Assembly (NCBI GenBank): GCA_902763365.1
Contig: CACWRT010000010.1
Location: 1 to 40,398 of the forward strand
Origin: an uncultured Ruminococcus sp.
Lineage (GTDB): Bacteria; Bacillota; Clostridia; Oscillospirales; Acutalibacteraceae
Reading direction: 5' to 3'
DNA length: 40,398 nt
This document shows positions 70 to 17,337 of the stretch, piece by piece; the stretch's first letter is position 1; every line of letters starts with the position of its first letter. Made by a program: the position numbers and the translations under genes. The notes beneath the pieces are model-generated. The model was not told where the DNA came from. It searched no databases and saw only the letters and a program-made list of their open reading frames with translations.

Positions 70-98
70 TTGAATAAAGAGAGGGAGTGTGGTACAAT
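70..98 (+). promoter_or_regulatory. Sigma-A type promoter of the HSP90-like operon
   Basis: TTGAAT (70-75) and TACAAT (93-98) are separated by exactly 17 bases and lie about 55 bases before the first start codon. This is a good vegetative promoter and suggests constitutive expression of the HSP90/TPR operon. No heat-shock operator of the CIRCE type is visible in the leader. Confidence 0.65.
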
Positions 99-152: not shown

Positions 153-1958
153 ATGATAAGCATGGAAAAGGATTTTAAATTTAAAGTTAATCTGGGCGGT
201 ATGATAGATCTGCTTTCTAATCACTTGTACAGTTCTCCGGATGTTTTTGTGCGTGAACTGCTTCAGAACGGAACCGACGCTATAAGTGCAAGAATTTCTT
301 CCGATGAAAACTTTTCGGAAAACGATGCTAAAATAGATATAGAAGTAGAACAAGGTAACCGCATATTATTCCGTGATAACGGAACAGGTCTTAACGAAGA
401 AGAAATACACCGCTTTTTGTCCGTTATAGGTCAGTCTTCTAAATACGATTTAGAAAATAATATGGCAAACGGAGATTATATAGGCCGCTTCGGAATAGGT
501 CTGTTGTCCTGTTTTATGGTAACAGACTATATTTGTGTACGAACCCGTTCCTATAAATCCCCCGAAACTGTACTTGAATGGAAGGGTATGGCTGACGGAA
601 CATATACCATAGACACTATATCTTATGATATGCCTGTGGGAACTGAAATTATAATCGAAAACAATAAAACAGAAAAAGACGACAGCGTAGATGAATATTA
701 TAACTGCGACAATATATCAAATCTTGTATATTATTACGGCTTGTTCCTCAGATATCCTGTATACACCGTAAACGGTGAGGAAAAAACCAGACTCAACCTT
801 AAATTTGATTTTGATGCAGATAAAGACAAAGAACTGTGTATGACTCTCGGAAAAACTTTTCTCGGAGAAAATTTCCTTGATTGCTTTACCCTCCGATCAC
901 CTACGGGTCTTTTCAGCGGTATCGCTTATGTTCTTCCCTATCCTGTATCCGCTAATGTCCATAATATGCACCGCATATACCTTAAAAATATGCTGCTGAC
1001 CGAAAACGGTCAAAAGATACTTCCCGAATGGGCATTCTTTATACGCTGTATAATAAACACAAATAACCTTAAACCTACATCTTCCCGTGAAGATTTCTAT
1101 GAGGATGATGCGCTTGAAACAGCAAGAAATGAAATAGGCGATATCATAGCCGACTATTTTGAAACTCTTGATATACACAACAAAGAGCTTCTCTATAAAA
1201 TAGTCAGTATTCATAGTCTTGCTGTAAAATCAGTAATATCTTCCGGAGATACAATGGATGATCTTCTTCTGCCCTATATCATATTCCATACATCTATGGG
1301 CGACCTGACAGGAAAGGATATTCTTGATTTCGATTCTACAGCATTTTATACCATTGACGAAAATCAGTTCAGACAGCTTGCACCTCTCTACGTTCAGAGA
1401 AATGAACTGCTTATAAATGCAGGTTATGTATACGAAGACGCAATTATTACCAAACTCTCCGAAATGAGCCGAAAAACTGATATAGTAAAACTGACTGATT
1501 CGGATATTGACTTTATGCTTGACGACAGTGAATTTGACGGTGATCCTACCGCTGATAAGCTTATAAGGCTTGCCACAAAAATACTCAGAAAGTATGACTG
1601 TAAGCCGTCACTGAAGGAATTCCGCCCCTTTGAAATTCCTGCACTGTACACTATCAACGAAAAAGCATATAAGGCAAGACAGATAAGACGTTCCAAGCAG
1701 AATGCCAATAATGTATTCATGGGTATGCTTAATTCGTTTGAAAACGAAATTTCTTCCGCAGCAGCAGTTGCTTGTCTTTATCTGAATACTAACAACCTGA
1801 TAATCCGCAAGCTTATAGACATGGATGACGATGAAAAACTTTCCTGTTACATAGAAATAATCTATGTTCAGTCCCTTCTCTCAGGTCATTTTCCTCTGCT
1901 CAATAACGAAATGAAAGTACTTAACGAGAACCTCTATAAAGTACTAAGCTTTGACTGA
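153..1958 (+). CDS. HSP90-family (HtpG-like) ATPase
   Basis: This is an HSP90/GHKL ATPase of 601 residues, close to the usual HtpG length of about 620. The N-terminal ATP-binding domain has the helix motif ELLQNGTDA (E35, N39, D42; E35 matches the catalytic glutamate), RDNGTG at 74-79 and GRFGIG at 111-116. The middle domain keeps an SRE-containing catalytic-loop segment (TSSREDFYEDD) as in HSP90. The C-terminal part is divergent and there is no EEVD tail. It is a divergent branch rather than canonical HtpG, so I give no symbol. It is followed closely by two paralogous TPR-like genes, which suggests a chaperone working with dedicated partners. The start at 153 follows GAGGTG (145-150) closely; the ATG at 162 is an alternative. 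It lies on the lagging strand, unlike most neighbours. Confidence 0.85.
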   Translation: MISMEKDFKFKVNLGGMIDLLSNHLYSSPDVFVRELLQNGTDAISARISSDENFSENDAKIDIEVEQGNRILFRDNGTGLNEEEIHRFLSVIGQSSKYDLENNMANGDYIGRFGIGLLSCFMVTDYICVRTRSYKSPETVLEWKGMADGTYTIDTISYDMPVGTEIIIENNKTEKDDSVDEYYNCDNISNLVYYYGLFLRYPVYTVNGEEKTRLNLKFDFDADKDKELCMTLGKTFLGENFLDCFTLRSPTGLFSGIAYVLPYPVSANVHNMHRIYLKNMLLTENGQKILPEWAFFIRCIINTNNLKPTSSREDFYEDDALETARNEIGDIIADYFETLDIHNKELLYKIVSIHSLAVKSVISSGDTMDDLLLPYIIFHTSMGDLTGKDILDFDSTAFYTIDENQFRQLAPLYVQRNELLINAGYVYEDAIITKLSEMSRKTDIVKLTDSDIDFMLDDSEFDGDPTADKLIRLATKILRKYDCKPSLKEFRPFEIPALYTINEKAYKARQIRRSKQNANNVFMGMLNSFENEISSAAAVACLYLNTNNLIIRKLIDMDDDEKLSCYIEIIYVQSLLSGHFPLLNNEMKVLNENLYKVLSFD

Positions 1959-2010
1959 TTTACCTTATAGTGCAGTCCTGCTTTCAAAAATAAAGATAAA
2001 GGAGGTAATT

Positions 2011-3108
2011 ATGATAACCGAAGAATATACCGGTATGTTTGAAAACCTTGCCGACGGTGAAGCAAAATGCAGGGGAATAAAAGCCGCAATAGATAAAGCA
2101 CTTGAAAAACAGGATGTTGAACAGGTCCTTCAGCTATATTATCTGTATATTAAAGAAGATACGTTTAACGGCGACGGATTCCGATCCGTTGTACTGTTTC
2201 CCGAATACCTGTCATATTTTGATAAGCATCCCGAATTTCACGAACAATACAGCTATGATCTCATGTGGAGCTTTAAATGGATATTGTCGGGAGCGGAAGA
2301 CTTTTATCAGATACCCCTCAGCCAGATAACCGAAATGTATCGTCAATATGGTGAATACTGTGATAAACTCAACTACAATAAACGAAGCTATTACCGCAAA
2401 CTCTGGTGTTTTATGAGTAATTACGCACTGAAAAACTTTCCGCTGTGTTCAAGCTGTGAAGAAGCGCATGATCTTATGATGCACTGTCCTAAGGATGAAC
2501 TAAGCGAAGTACCTGCGGGGGAAGCTGACGATCTGACCGCATATTATCTTGATGTCGAAAAAAACATAGATAAGGCTCTTAAAGCCGCAGAACCTATACT
2601 TTCAGGCAAATATACCTGTAATGTGGTTCCCCATTATACATACGATAACCTTGCCGTATACTATTTTTATCATAATGACTTTGAAACTGCCGAACGGTAC
2701 GCTAAAATGAGTATGCGTCTTATAAACCGTGATTTCGGATCAGTCAATTCGCTCGTTCTGCACAAGGGCAACATAATAATGATCCTCTCATATACCGATC
2801 TTCCCGCAGCACTCAAATTTTTTCGCAGACAGCTTGGAGTATGTTACACAAACGAATGTGGTTTTGACAACTTCTTTTTCTACAGAGGAGCATATCATCT
2901 TATGCACTGCCTTGAAAAAAACAGCGAAGAAACAGTAAGATTACAGTTCCCATGGACAACCGAACCGATATATAACAGCAGTAATATATACTCCACATCA
3001 GAACTCAAACAATACTTCTATAACAAAACAAAGTATATAGCTGATCGTTTTGATGAAAGGGATGGAAATCATCATTTCAACTATCTTTTAAGTAAGAAGT
3101 TTAATTAA
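2011..3108 (+). CDS. TPR-like helical-repeat protein, first paralog
   Basis: This is a soluble, aromatic-rich, all-helical protein of 365 residues with no signal peptide or membrane segment. One TPR-like helix pair is visible near residues 207-240 (YHNDFETAERYAKMSMRL). Along its whole length it is paralogous to the N-terminal half of the next gene: both share FPEYxxYF, DLMWxxKWI, a CPxDxLS segment, LINRD and the closing FDERxGN. The start at 2011 is chosen because AAAGGAGG (1998-2005) precedes it with ideal spacing; the frame is open further upstream but has no ribosome site there. It begins 52 bases after the HSP90-like gene stops, so co-transcription is likely. Function is unknown. A role as co-chaperone or adaptor of the HSP90-like protein is inference from neighbourhood and fold type only. 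Confidence 0.8.
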   Translation: MITEEYTGMFENLADGEAKCRGIKAAIDKALEKQDVEQVLQLYYLYIKEDTFNGDGFRSVVLFPEYLSYFDKHPEFHEQYSYDLMWSFKWILSGAEDFYQIPLSQITEMYRQYGEYCDKLNYNKRSYYRKLWCFMSNYALKNFPLCSSCEEAHDLMMHCPKDELSEVPAGEADDLTAYYLDVEKNIDKALKAAEPILSGKYTCNVVPHYTYDNLAVYYFYHNDFETAERYAKMSMRLINRDFGSVNSLVLHKGNIIMILSYTDLPAALKFFRRQLGVCYTNECGFDNFFFYRGAYHLMHCLEKNSEETVRLQFPWTTEPIYNSSNIYSTSELKQYFYNKTKYIADRFDERDGNHHFNYLLSKKFN

Positions 3109-3397
3109 TAGTTTATAGTTTTAAATCGGGACAAATAATAGTATCAATCAAAGTCAAAAACTTTGGAAGGCGAAATAAATAAGAATATATTTAAGCGTAA
3201 AAGTTTCGCAGGGGTCTTTTCAAAGGCTTGCGGAGTCCGGAGGCAGAGCCTCTGGTCGCTGCGTTAGCAGCGAAACAAGTCTCCAAATCTTTCCTCAGTG
3301 TCTTAGGTTGACAATATTGCCCGTTGGAAGTGCCCTTGGGGTGCGGAGCCTTGGCCGTCGAGACAAACCAAATTATTTTCAGAAAGGATGAGTAAGA
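3109..3397. repeat. Intergenic island carrying dispersed repeat family A
   Basis: This 289-bp gap splits the two TPR-like paralogs. From about 3195 it carries AAAAGTTTCGC, then CTTTTCAAAGGC and the palindromic GAGGCAGAGCCTC. The same order appears in reverse complement at 17338-17470, where the palindrome is AGGGCAGAGCCCT. The remainder (3265-3380) is moderately GC-rich with no clear gene. AAAGGA at 3383-3388 is the ribosome site of the next gene. Whether transcription continues through the island cannot be told; no T-run terminator is visible. Confidence 0.6.
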
Positions 3398-5533
3398 ATG
3401 TACATTGAAGAGTACGAAGAGAAGTTTTATGAAGGACTTGAAAGAGGAAGCGCGAGAGCTAAGGGAATAAAGAAAGCTCTTGACTATGCACTGGAACAGC
3501 AGGATGTTGACGGAGCATTTCAGCTTTATCATGATTTTATGAATGAAGATGTAATGCACGGAAATTCATATCAGGCTATAATCCTTTTCCCTGAGTATGT
3601 TGCATATTTCGAAGAACATCCGGATAAACAGCAGGAATATAATCATGACCTGATGTGGACATATAAATGGATAATAGGAAATATCCAGGATTTTCCACAG
3701 ATACCGCTGTCACAGATAGAAAACATTTATAATCAATATATGGATTTCTGCAAAAGATTCAACTATAACCTGCGTACCTATTACGGCAGCATAGCATTTT
3801 TCATACAGCTTCATTTGGGAAAGAACGGAAAATTCTGCGGCCTTACCGCTGAAGAAGCTCACAGCAAAATGCTGAAATGCCCCCGTGACAATCTGAGCGA
3901 CTGCGTTGCCTGCGAAACCTCCGCAGAAGTCAGCTACCTTATTAATAATGATGAGCCCGAAGAAAAGATAATCAAAAAGGCAAAAGGTCTTATAGAAGGC
4001 AGAATGACCTGTGCAGAACAGCCGCACTGTGCTCTTGCCAATATCGCAGAATATTATCTTGAACACGGCGACCTTACAAATGCTGTCAAATTTGCAGATA
4101 AAGCATACCACCTCATTAACCGTGACTATGCAAATGAATATAACCTGACTGTCAAAAAAAGTATGTGCATGACAGTTTATGCACATTCTGACCCCAACAA
4201 AGCTATTAAAATACTTAAAAATATTATGCGCTTCGTTCCCGAAAATTCAAACTATAACGACCTTTTTGAGATATACAGAAGCACTTACTATTTCCTGAAT
4301 CTTCTTGACCTCAACGGTGCATCTCATATACGCCTACGTCTGCCTTTCCGTGACGAAGAAATTCTCACCGAAGATAATGTTTACGAGATACCTGTACTGA
4401 AAGACTTCTTCTATAACAAAGCAAAAGAGCTTGCGGAAAAATTCGACGAAAGAAACGGTAATACCCTTTTCTCCGAACGTCTTGACCACATAAATGAAGT
4501 AGATACCGAAAACTTCAAATTCAACAACGAAATGCCCGATTATCCCCTGCTCGCATATATACAGGAAAACCTTGACGAGGGTTATCTGCCGGAAAACTTC
4601 TCTCTTCCCTCTCCTGCGCTTGATGATGACGGCGAGGCTTTCGCTGACGGCGCGCTTGACGGCATAATACTCTATCATCATCAGGGCGAGCCCACAGAAC
4701 TCGGTGAGCTTGAAGATATTTTACGCAGGGCTGCTGAAGGCTCTGACAGCATAACTGTAAATAAAACCGAAATGTATTTTGAGAAAACAGGCAACAGAAT
4801 GGTAACCATGATAGATAATGTCCTGAACTTCATTATAGATCATCAGTCCGAACTCGATGCAAAAAATATGTTCGAATACGGTATTGATCTTACAGTTGAT
4901 TCAAACAACAAAGAAACAGTAAAGCTCGGACTCAGCATTCTTTCACTATTCGGAAACTTTAACGAGAAACTCACTGAAGCTATTCTTGATATTTCCACCT
5001 GTAACGAATTTACCTTGTTCGGTATGTGGGCTATGGACGCTATGGAGAACAAAAACGACCTTATCTTTGAAATGGCAAAGCGCGCTGACGGCTGGGGCAG
5101 GATCGTTACTGTAGACGAGCTTATCCCCGAAACAGACGAGATAAAGGACTGGATCCTTCATAACGGTATGAAAAATACCATATACCCGGGATATTCGGCT
5201 ATAAGCTGCTTTAAAAAGGCAGATGTTATGACCCTGCTTGAAAATGGTCTTACGGACGATAACTTTACTGCTGTCGAATATATTATAACCTTCCTAATTC
5301 TTGACGGTCCTACAATAGGCATAAAGGCTTTTGCAGAAGATGAAGAGCGTATTATGGATATGTTTATCACTGCCGCAGAAAACAGAGAGCTTGACGACTT
5401 TGAAAAAAGAGGATTACAGCTTATACTTACAAACTACGACAATGAAAATATCTGTAACCGTCTGACTGCTATGGGCATTGAACCCCTTGAAGATAATACG
5501 GAAGAAAACGAAGAAACTGAGGATACAGAATAA
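3398..5533 (+). CDS. TPR-like protein with long C-terminal extension, second paralog
   Basis: The protein has 711 residues. Residues 1 to about 370 are a paralog of the preceding 365-residue protein, with matching FPEYVAYF, DLMWTYKWI, CPRDNLS, a TPR-like pair at about 210-245 and FDERNGN at 349-354. Residues 380-711 are an extra acidic, helix-rich region with no paralog in the window; its leucine-rich helices of 30-40 residues suggest a HEAT-like solenoid, but I do not recognise the family. The tail is strongly acidic (EENEETEDTE). It is cytoplasmic, with no signal peptide. The start follows AAAGGA (3383-3388). A strong terminator follows at 5538. Duplication of one gene followed by fusion or extension is the simplest history. 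Function is unknown; partnership with the HSP90-like ATPase is inferred from the operon. Confidence 0.82.
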   Translation: MYIEEYEEKFYEGLERGSARAKGIKKALDYALEQQDVDGAFQLYHDFMNEDVMHGNSYQAIILFPEYVAYFEEHPDKQQEYNHDLMWTYKWIIGNIQDFPQIPLSQIENIYNQYMDFCKRFNYNLRTYYGSIAFFIQLHLGKNGKFCGLTAEEAHSKMLKCPRDNLSDCVACETSAEVSYLINNDEPEEKIIKKAKGLIEGRMTCAEQPHCALANIAEYYLEHGDLTNAVKFADKAYHLINRDYANEYNLTVKKSMCMTVYAHSDPNKAIKILKNIMRFVPENSNYNDLFEIYRSTYYFLNLLDLNGASHIRLRLPFRDEEILTEDNVYEIPVLKDFFYNKAKELAEKFDERNGNTLFSERLDHINEVDTENFKFNNEMPDYPLLAYIQENLDEGYLPENFSLPSPALDDDGEAFADGALDGIILYHHQGEPTELGELEDILRRAAEGSDSITVNKTEMYFEKTGNRMVTMIDNVLNFIIDHQSELDAKNMFEYGIDLTVDSNNKETVKLGLSILSLFGNFNEKLTEAILDISTCNEFTLFGMWAMDAMENKNDLIFEMAKRADGWGRIVTVDELIPETDEIKDWILHNGMKNTIYPGYSAISCFKKADVMTLLENGLTDDNFTAVEYIITFLILDGPTIGIKAFAEDEERIMDMFITAAENRELDDFEKRGLQLILTNYDNENICNRLTAMGIEPLEDNTEENEETEDTE

Positions 5534-5537
5534 AAGC

Positions 5538-5577
5538 ATCACGGCTGAAAATGCGATCAAACATTTTCAGCCGTGAT
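5538..5577. terminator. Perfect 16-bp stem terminator, probably bidirectional
   Basis: ATCACGGCTGAAAATG (5538-5553) pairs perfectly with 5562-5577 across an 8-base loop and is followed by TATTTTATTATTT. It ends the HSP90/TPR operon and, read from the other strand, the convergent gene that stops at 5585. Confidence 0.9.
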
Positions 5578-15311: not shown

Positions 15312-17199
15312 TTTCTTTTCCTTTCGTGTTATGGGAGAGGGTGGACAGGTATATAACAAGCACAGATATATCAGCTGGGCTGACTCCCGAAATACGTCCT
15401 GCCTGACCGATATTCTCAGGACGGACTTTATTTAACTTTTCCCTTGCTTCAAGGCGAAGTCCGTCAATTTTGGAATAATCAATATCAGACGGCAAAAGCT
15501 TTGATTCAAGTCTGCGAACCTGATCTATTATTATCAGCTGACGTTTAATATACCCCTCATATTTTATTTCTATTTCAACCTGTTCAAGAACACTTCTGTC
15601 GGTTTCGGTTCGTGTTTTATCAACAGGAGTCAGAACCTCAAAGCTAAGCTGAGGCCGTTTTATAAGATCGCACAGACGTATGCCTGTTTTTACTTCTGAT
15701 GTATTGTTTTCTTTCAGAATTGCATTTAGTTCATCTGTAGGAGACAATACGGTGGTTCTGACTCTTTGAAGTTCTGCCTGAACCCTGTTCAGCTTGGCAT
15801 TATATTTTTCCCAGCGTTTATCTGTTATAAGACCTATTTTTCTTCCCAGCGGAGTCAATCTCACATCTGCATTATCCTGACGAAGTATAAGTCTGTATTC
15901 ACTTCTTGAAGTCATCATACGGTAAGGGTCATTACAGCCTTTTGTTACAAGGTCATCTATAAGAGTTCCGATATAAGAACTTGCTCTGTCGAGAATAAAG
16001 GGTTCCTTTCCCAGAATTTTAAGTGCGGCATTTATACCTGCAACAAGTCCCTGAGCTGCGGCTTCCTCATAACCCGAGCTGCCGTTGAACTGACCTGCGC
16101 CGTACAGCCCCGAAAATTCACGGAATTCAAGTGTACTGTTCATCTGAACCGGGTCGGCGCAGAAGTATTCTATTGCATATGCAGGACGCATTACAGTACA
16201 GTTTTCAAGTCCTTTTATAGTGTGGTAGAAGGCAAGCTGCACATCCTCCGGCAGCGATGATGACATACCTTGTATATACATTTCCTCAGTATCAAGACCG
16301 CACGGTTCTATAAACAGCTGATGCCTTGGCTTATCGGAAAATCTGACAATTTTATCTTCAATGCTCGGACAGTAGCGAGGACCGATACCTTCGATTTTTC
16401 CACTGTACATAGGAGATCGGTTGATGTTATCGAGAATAACTTTTTTAGTATTTTCGTTTGTCCAGCTTACATAGCATTTTACTTTATTTTCGCCCGGGTC
16501 ATCTGTATCATATGAAAAAGGGACTATCGGGTCGTCACCGCTTTGCTCTTCAAGATCGGTAAAATCTATACTTGAACGAAGAACTCTTGCAGGTGTACCT
16601 GTTTTGAAACGTCTTATGCTCATTCCCATTTTTTCAAGCGCATCGGGAAGATATTTTGACGGGAACATACCGTCAGGACCGCTTTCATATGAAACATCAC
16701 CTACATATATTTTTCCGCCCAGATATGTACCTGTAGCCAGCACAACAGCCTTTGCCCTGTACATAGCTTCAAGTCTTGTTGTAAGCACCCACATACCGTC
16801 CTCATCTTTTATCAGGTCGGTTATTTCTGCTTGTCTTAGTTCAAGGTTGTCCTGCAGCTCAAGAGTATGTTTCATTCTTGTACTGTATGCCCTTCTGTCG
16901 ATCTGAGCTCTGAGGGAATGTACGGCAGGTCCTTTGCCTTTATTCAGCATCCTGCTCTGCAAAAAACATTCATCTGCCGCTTTACCCATTTCACCGCCAA
17001 GAGCGTCTATCTCTCTTACAAGATGCCCTTTTGCCGTACCTCCTATTGAAGGATTACAAGGGCAATTCCCTACTGCATCCATATTTATGGTAAATACTCC
17101 TGTCTTACATCCCAGTCTCGCTGCCGCAAGTCCTGCTTCTATTCCTGCATGACCTGCTCCTATCACCGCAACATCAAACTCTCCTGCCAAAAATTTCAT
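15301..17199 (-). CDS. mnmG: tRNA uridine-5-carboxymethylaminomethyl synthesis enzyme MnmG (GidA)
   Basis: This FAD-dependent enzyme works with MnmE to modify the wobble uridine (U34) of certain tRNAs. The 632 residues match the family. The FAD site is VAVIGAGHAGIEAGLAAARL at the N-terminus, and GNCPCNPSIGGTAKGHLVREI carries the conserved cysteines. The PGPRYCPSIEDK-type segment is present as GIGPRYCPSIEDK. The C-terminal helical domain, which binds MnmE, is complete. It overlaps rsmG by 11 bases. The leader contains five copies of a 22-bp purine-rich repeat. Its partner mnmE lies 5.5 kb away in a separate unit. Confidence 0.97.
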   Translation of the reverse strand: MKFLAGEFDVAVIGAGHAGIEAGLAAARLGCKTGVFTINMDAVGNCPCNPSIGGTAKGHLVREIDALGGEMGKAADECFLQSRMLNKGKGPAVHSLRAQIDRRAYSTRMKHTLELQDNLELRQAEITDLIKDEDGMWVLTTRLEAMYRAKAVVLATGTYLGGKIYVGDVSYESGPDGMFPSKYLPDALEKMGMSIRRFKTGTPARVLRSSIDFTDLEEQSGDDPIVPFSYDTDDPGENKVKCYVSWTNENTKKVILDNINRSPMYSGKIEGIGPRYCPSIEDKIVRFSDKPRHQLFIEPCGLDTEEMYIQGMSSSLPEDVQLAFYHTIKGLENCTVMRPAYAIEYFCADPVQMNSTLEFREFSGLYGAGQFNGSSGYEEAAAQGLVAGINAALKILGKEPFILDRASSYIGTLIDDLVTKGCNDPYRMMTSRSEYRLILRQDNADVRLTPLGRKIGLITDKRWEKYNAKLNRVQAELQRVRTTVLSPTDELNAILKENNTSEVKTGIRLCDLIKRPQLSFEVLTPVDKTRTETDRSVLEQVEIEIKYEGYIKRQLIIIDQVRRLESKLLPSDIDYSKIDGLRLEAREKLNKVRPENIGQAGRISGVSPADISVLVIYLSTLSHNTKGKENDK

Positions 17200-17229
17200 T
17201 TTTCTTCTTCTCCCTTTTCCTTTTATTTA

Positions 17230-17337
17230 CTAATCTTCTTTCTTTTATTTTCTAATCTTCTTTCTTTTATTTTCTAATCTTCTTTCTTTTATTTTCTAAT
17301 CTTCTTTTTTTATTTACTAATCTTCTTCCTGCTTTTA
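17230..17337. repeat. 22-bp tandem repeat in the mnmG leader
   Basis: The unit CTAATCTTCTTTCTTTTATT plus TT starts at 17230, 17252, 17274, 17296 and, one base short, at 17317. On the mnmG strand it is a purine-rich AAGAAAGAAGATTAG repeat directly before the ribosome site. Near-identical units suggest recent slippage and possible copy-number variation. Confidence 0.9.

Follow-up and report, generated by a model that had tools for sequence, protein, structure and literature searches.

At the start of the 40,398-nucleotide stretch of DNA from an uncultured Ruminococcus sp. analysed here (hereafter the window), a gene for a divergent Hsp90 is followed by two genes, encoding proteins that we call P2 and P3, which share a helical module. 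Judged from sequence and gene association, the locus on balance probably pairs a second, specialised bacterial Hsp90 with a family of co-chaperones or adaptors dedicated to it. The Hsp90 branch is already known from an NCBI model and from printed paralogue groups; the partner family looks undescribed. The pairing of the two genes recurs in several bacterial phyla.

A divergent Hsp90 that coexists with HtpG

The preliminary description of this DNA had proposed an HSP90/GHKL ATPase with its catalytic residues kept at the head of the locus, and the present analysis bears this out. The product of the first open reading frame (ORF) scored 582.8 bits against NF010683 (PRK14083, 'HSP90 family protein'; cut-off 455), a model that names no partner, but only 162.4 bits against the HtpG equivalog model NF003555, far below its cut-off of 371. 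The two types of protein nevertheless share a three-domain architecture, the ATP-site residues and the middle-domain arginine. Residues E35, N39, D42 and D75 of the ATP site, which have a catalytic role in Hsp90, and R312 of the middle domain are invariant across 61 aligned homologues, all of which match NF010683 at E ≤ 1e-10. The ATP-site residues also align to those of HtpG, and R312 aligns with the HtpG SRE motif. The structure model (mean predicted local distance difference test, pLDDT, 85.2) was matched by Foldseek to HtpG and TRAP1 over about 630–650 columns, with HtpG 9a6t ranked first. For this putative ATP-driven clamp, sequence and model support the usual three Hsp90 domains, including a predicted C-terminal dimerisation domain.

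In a phylogenetic tree, the branch (64 rows) is split with full support from five HtpG-type proteins. Among the latter is the second Hsp90 homologue of the window's own genome, which is 24% identical to the window protein. All seven further genomes that were searched and carry an Hsp90 of the branch likewise contain a second, weaker, HtpG-sized match. The nearest Hsp90 among the matches listed comes from a metagenome-assembled genome of an uncultured Ruminococcus (88%). The NF010683 cut-off was also exceeded in the control genomes of Corynebacterium glutamicum and Deinobacterium chartae. Three loci scoring 211–221 bits against NF010683 (L005, L006 and L007), below the cut-off, group with the genome's own HtpG and were left out of the counts.

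Extra, deeply branching bacterial Hsp90 paralogues appear in two earlier papers: Chen 2006 (PMC1525184) sorts the bacterial HTPG proteins into three groups (A, B and C) and records two copies in Streptomyces coelicolor, and Press 2013 (PMC3708813) distinguishes hsp90B and hsp90C paralogue groups while restricting its own analysis to hsp90A. The words 'operon', 'TPR' and 'tetratricopeptide' are absent from the text of Chen 2006. In the literature, PRK14083 turned up in one unrelated fish paper, and, judged by titles and the opening of abstracts, no description of the Hsp90–module pair was found in the literature searched, which largely excluded subscription papers and bioRxiv preprints. The view that the locus is an undescribed system can thus be kept for the partner family, not for the Hsp90 branch.

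The partner module is a helical family with variable extensions

P2 and the N-terminal half of P3 are 38% identical over about 359 residues (E 1e-89), confirming that the two genes share a common module. Neither protein reached the threshold of any family in Pfam, NCBIfam or PADLOC. The modules had been called TPR-like (TPR, tetratricopeptide repeat), which is fair: the P3 model is all-helical apart from a few short strands (mean pLDDT 92.9), but the Pfam TPR families gave sub-threshold matches to P2 and none to P3. Searched against the PDB, the P3 model retrieved mostly helical-repeat proteins, none at E < 0.001 and with TMt no higher than 0.52 among the 50 matches listed. For family-wide comparison, 70 modules selected from those fetched were aligned; each TPR family was present at E 0.001 in at most two of them, NCBIfam families were present in none, and one Listeria module lay just above the TPR_8 cut-off. 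The module profile detected nothing below E 0.018 among solved proteins. The most conserved features of the module are D164, the motif S-D-C-x-A-C-E (residues 167–173), C205 and the motif F-D-x-R-N-G (residues 349–354).

ORFs extending at least 100 residues past the aligned module account for 17 of 93, and the extensions differ in kind. They comprise an unnamed helical part in the ruminococcal branch, Sel1 repeats in L048, and DUF4026 plus DUF2314, both domains of unknown function, in L067 (9843–12173) and L108 (328–2619). In Streptomyces plasmid records (L103, L105 and L107), the module is the N-terminal part of a protein of 1033–1055 residues, the remainder of which shows TPR matches that pass the Pfam cut-off in L103 but stay under it in L105 and L107. 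The extension in L037 enters transporter-like sequence on a contig containing unknown letters and is likely an artefact.

The module has also been duplicated in tandem independently at least in Paenibacillus (L065), Lachnospiraceae and their kin (L038 and L043/L049/L070), Listeria (L104) and the ruminococcal branch, with three modules following a single Hsp90 in L038 and L043. Over 51 loci, the module has diverged more than the Hsp90 (mean p-distance 0.73 versus 0.57). The two sets of distances correlate (r 0.81, computed on these loci without a control pair), as expected from joint descent.

Hsp90 and module are kept together across phyla

A scan of named genomes yielded at least 573 relatives of the window Hsp90, and the best 80 of these were taken as the locus set, which leans to near relatives because the closest were kept. 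There is room for a downstream gene in 77 of the 80 loci; the remaining three end right after the Hsp90. In 72 of these 77, a same-strand module follows the Hsp90 at a distance of at most 772 bp, three of the 72 modules being cut by the end of the contig (L045, L076 and L080). With module start codons picked by script, the median distance from the Hsp90 stop to the module start is 2 bp; the reading frames overlap in 35 of the 72 loci and 64 are within 60 bp, the largest gap being 772 bp. Adjacent pairs occur in Bacillota, Planctomycetota, Myxococcota and Acidobacteriota. The module also directly follows the Hsp90 in all three Streptomyces plasmid records, and two modules follow it in the Listeria record L104 (NZ_LR134399.1). 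This record is labelled as a plasmid and resembles a piece of chromosome (fri, queG, trmL and lmo0937-type genes). The Listeria gene is presumably the one named lmo0942; that name occurs in two papers, in one of which the passage just lists a cloned fragment.

Co-occurrence was assessed in genome samples as well. Among 150 genomes of the same family, where the module query was a single window protein at E ≤ 1e-4, two contain both the Hsp90 (above the cut-off) and the module and none contains one alone. Among 398 genomes of the phylum, the identical six contain each gene, again with none holding one alone. Of 117 Myxococcota, 38 have the Hsp90, 39 the module and 38 both, and in all 38 the pair is adjacent on one strand. 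Merging these three samples, the first two of which have two genomes in common, gave 663 distinct Bacillota and Myxococcota genomes, which are related to each other: 45 with both genes, one with the module only, none with the Hsp90 only and 617 with neither. Because neighbours of the Hsp90 served to build the module profiles, these could overlook a divergent module located away from an Hsp90. In eight more genomes (those of contig-edge loci and two others) the module was found in seven, in G554 just as a 61-residue stretch; the exception is G553, where the contig bearing the Hsp90 is 3 kb long.

These counts refute the notion that an ordinary HtpG lies by chance beside an unrelated repeat protein. 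Helical-repeat proteins are common, which is what could make such a neighbour unremarkable, but the window protein falls far under the HtpG cut-off, belongs to a separate branch and, in the merged sample, coexists with the module in 45 genomes against a single genome with the module only. Next to no weight is left for this explanation.

When ORFs were clustered over 84 loci (the 80 plus L103, L104, L105 and L107), the Hsp90 was represented in 81 and the module in 71, the next cluster in nine. There is thus no third recurring neighbour, and the Hsp90–module pair appears as a free-standing cassette. The same result bears on the idea that the pair forms a defence or conflict system, with the Hsp90 serving as a threshold ATPase and the module as sensor or effector. 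The Hsp90 does show weak GHKL similarity to PADLOC TmtA and to restriction enzymes, and on a Pseudanabaena plasmid a different Hsp90-like ATPase stands beside TIR, TPR, vWA and AAA genes. However, the PADLOC matches are generic GHKL ones to the ATPase alone, the partners have no PADLOC match, those scanned contain no effector domain, and the Pseudanabaena TPR protein matches the module at E 1e-3 only. Nor was there a full-length viral relative with genome context. The defence explanation was rejected and is considered very improbable. The main text of a survey of conflict systems (PMC7159879) contains neither HSP90 nor GHKL.

The Pseudanabaena plasmid gene itself was discarded as a relative, having 25% identity, another gene order and that marginal module match. 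Its surroundings (L106, 5216–13698), comprising the 877-residue ATPase and the TIR, TPR, vWA and AAA genes, possibly represent a conflict system in their own right. A phage or virus origin of the window Hsp90 was also rejected. A scan of viral contigs returned four partial relatives, with matches spanning at most about 230 of the 601 residues. A phage collection returned 31 records; two of them cover 80% or more of the query, and short unannotated fragments labelled Listeria or faecal phage are among the ten listed. Fifteen records of that collection are Prevotella phages with Hsp90-like sequence, the one listed being a 552-kb Lak phage with about 23% identity over half the query.

A conserved cysteine site in most modules

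The CxxC pair is present in 62 of the 70 aligned modules, every one of which also has C205. Of the eight modules without the pair, seven stand first in a ruminococcal tandem, like P2, and the eighth is L067. Among 154 distinct module stretches, all three cysteines are found in 141; the 13 without the full site are the eight above and L027, L110, L111, L113 and the second copy in L108. Four of the latter five are not adjacent to an Hsp90; loss of the site thus tends to accompany separation from it. In the P3 model, one helix begins with the CxxC and C205 sits in the loop that follows the next helix, so that the three cysteines could be close in space. A zinc site with residue 210 (histidine in the window protein) as the fourth ligand was considered and is weakened, as a histidine is present there in 33 of the 62 three-cysteine modules.

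Exceptions to the pairing

Five Hsp90 loci have no adjacent module (L026, L029, L047, L052 and L078). All five genomes hold a module elsewhere, in four of them on another contig than the Hsp90. In flanks of about 1.5 kb around the non-adjacent modules, no Hsp90 was found. In the tree, the copies from G546 and G547 cluster with modules that are linked to an Hsp90 in related genomes; those from G548 and G550 form long branches of unsure placement. The single Bacteroidota locus (L078) has its module, lacking the cysteines, on another contig.

In 199 Planctomycetota, modules were found in seven genomes. In four of these (G558, G718, G721 and G753), an Hsp90 matching the branch profile adjoins a module; the order of the two genes is reversed in G753, and G718 has an additional module with no Hsp90 beside it. 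The expectation that the module does not occur mostly without the Hsp90 therefore holds strongly in Bacillota and Myxococcota but less so here, with adjacency in only four of seven, and the module may lead another life in some Planctomycetota. Across Planctomycetota and one myxobacterium, the modules with no Hsp90 seen beside them are those of the loci L207, L209, L210, L211, L213 and L214.

Several observations weigh against a dedicated partner family. G549 keeps a broken module only, about 9 kb downstream of its Hsp90. Petralouisia L047 keeps the Hsp90 with no module gene at the locus; L040 and L042, which have the same flanking genes, do have the module, indicating local loss. In the Myxococcota genome G606, the module is intact but no Hsp90 of the branch was detected. 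In the other three Planctomycetota, no Hsp90 was seen beside the module in the stretches covered, the rest of these genomes not being searched: 1.7 kb upstream and 1.5 kb downstream in G692, about 3 kb upstream and less than 1 kb downstream of each of two modules in G781, and in G838 a module split between contigs with nothing visible downstream. All three cysteines are absent from the far copy of Petralouisia (L110), from the only copy of G550 and, in G546 and G547, from one of the two copies present, so that either the cysteine site is not essential to function everywhere or these copies have drifted. Fusion of the Hsp90 and module genes, considered as a proof of contact, was found in none of 195 loci. 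Finally, gene association cannot separate a client from a partner.

Partner, client or shared regulon

The last point leaves room for the module protein as an obligate client, with the divergent Hsp90 as its private maturation factor and the module performing the actual cellular task, such as sensing redox state or metals. The same association data fit this arrangement, and so do the faster variation of the module, its conserved CxxC...C site and its swapping of C-terminal parts; co-evolution data cannot tell clients from co-chaperones, as stated in Press 2013 (PMC3708813). The three tandem modules in L038 and L043 and the very unequal lengths of the partners suggest several adaptors instead, although several clients would look alike, and G606 has its module without a detected Hsp90. 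The client explanation is regarded as unlikely, though it deserves serious attention. An adaptor fits better than a single client for a machine in which one part stays constant, tails are exchanged in some lineages and duplication has occurred repeatedly next to one ATPase.

Both genes could also belong to one stress regulon or pathway while their proteins never touch, which would agree with the lack of fusions and with a link between the proteins that is known from genes alone. Yet no genes but these two stay linked across several phyla, their reading frames overlap in nearly half of the adjacent loci, and both are retained where they stand apart. We find this explanation quite improbable.

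For the preferred reading, a dedicated co-chaperone or adaptor family, the following mechanism is proposed. The Hsp90 would act as an ATP-driven clamp. The module proteins would dock on it through a surface other than an EEVD tail, because the branch lacks this tail: none of 79 of its Hsp90s ends in EEVD, which rules out docking of that type. They would select or present a client, in some lineages through the added C-terminal part, the variation of which is observed directly. In most modules, the CxxC...C site could bind a metal or serve as a thiol switch, controlling the state of the adaptor. The module gene was duplicated in the ruminococcal branch, with P2 losing the CxxC pair and P3 keeping it; the two proteins would therefore probably load different clients, or serve as a constitutive and a regulated adaptor.

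Layout of the locus and the rest of the window

The window begins at the first base of the contig. The three ORFs lie where the earlier description placed them, are all on the plus strand and precede a terminator-like hairpin (Table 1), in agreement with the strong terminator described earlier.

Table 1. Features of the Hsp90–module locus, in window coordinates
Feature	Position	Strand	Remarks
Promoter-like site	70..98	+	TTGAAT-17-TACAAT, TG before second hexamer, 9/12 match; weak basis
Hsp90, branch NF010683/PRK14083, 601 aa	153..1958	+	ATP-site residues and middle-domain Arg kept; no EEVD tail
Partner 1 (P2), module alone, 365 aa	2011..3108	+	V167 and G170 replace the CxxC pair; C203 kept
Dispersed repeat element between P2 and P3 genes	3193..3328	.	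45 matches in own genome, itself counted
Partner 2 (P3), 711 aa: module (about residues 1–370) and C-terminal helical extension	3398..5533	+	
CxxC (C169, C172) of P3	3902..3913	+	Both Cys in 62/70 aligned and 141/154 distinct modules
Third conserved cysteine (C205) of P3	4010..4012	+	In 69/70 aligned modules
C-terminal extension of P3	4508..5530	+	Short helices in model; no Pfam family
Terminator-like hairpin	5538..5577	+	16–17 pairs; matched on both strands

The ORF list begins P2 at the TTG at 1951; the best start is the ATG at 2011, which has GGAGG ahead of it. The promoter-like site, described earlier as good, does match at 9 of 12 positions, but 32 sites of equal quality occur in the same 6.5 kb (20.3 ± 4.1 in shuffles), and because such sites are frequent in the region the match alone carries little information. 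The three same-strand genes likewise agree with the operon that had been proposed, but a single transcript is putative: a 289-bp gap that holds the dispersed genomic repeat lies between P2 and P3. RNA folding of this intergenic region is no better than in shuffles (z −0.64), and an Rfam scan of the window gave no family at gathering score.

Elsewhere in the window, short repeat families occur in direct and inverted copies (4–63/13210–13269 and 13147–13221/19276–19491), and a T-rich array of 22-bp units occupies 17195–17326. From translations read without a family search, the region 8900–39952, adjoining the Hsp90 genes, resembles the neighbourhood of an origin of replication, with parB-, mnmG-, mnmE-, jag-, yidC-, dnaA-, dnaN-, recF-, gyrB- and gyrA-like genes.

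Relation to Hsp90 co-chaperones and significance

Eukaryotic TPR co-chaperones bind the EEVD tail of Hsp90. Co-chaperones such as Hop and FKBP51/52 offer an analogy to the module in working manner, as helical-repeat partners of an Hsp90; they are absent from the module profile's list of solved proteins up to E 1. According to two papers, obligate Hsp90 co-chaperones are unidentified in bacteria (Press 2013, PMC3708813), and orthologues of Hop, Aha1 and p23 are not apparent in the eubacterial cytosol (PMC8082187, 2021). Against this background, we tentatively suggest that, with this module, a dedicated and near-obligate co-chaperone family could be recognised for the first time for a bacterial Hsp90, one that evolved apart from the EEVD-binding TPR proteins. 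It would carry a cysteine switch or metal site in most lineages and exchangeable client-binding tails in some, and would form with its Hsp90 a second, client-specific machine beside HtpG.

The module is a concrete and widespread candidate that has no name in Pfam or NCBIfam. If it is a client, the pair would represent an unusually tight one-client Hsp90. If it binds the Hsp90 as a partner, the pair would constitute a minimal Hsp90–adaptor system and provide an independent comparison for the gain of TPR partners by eukaryotic Hsp90.

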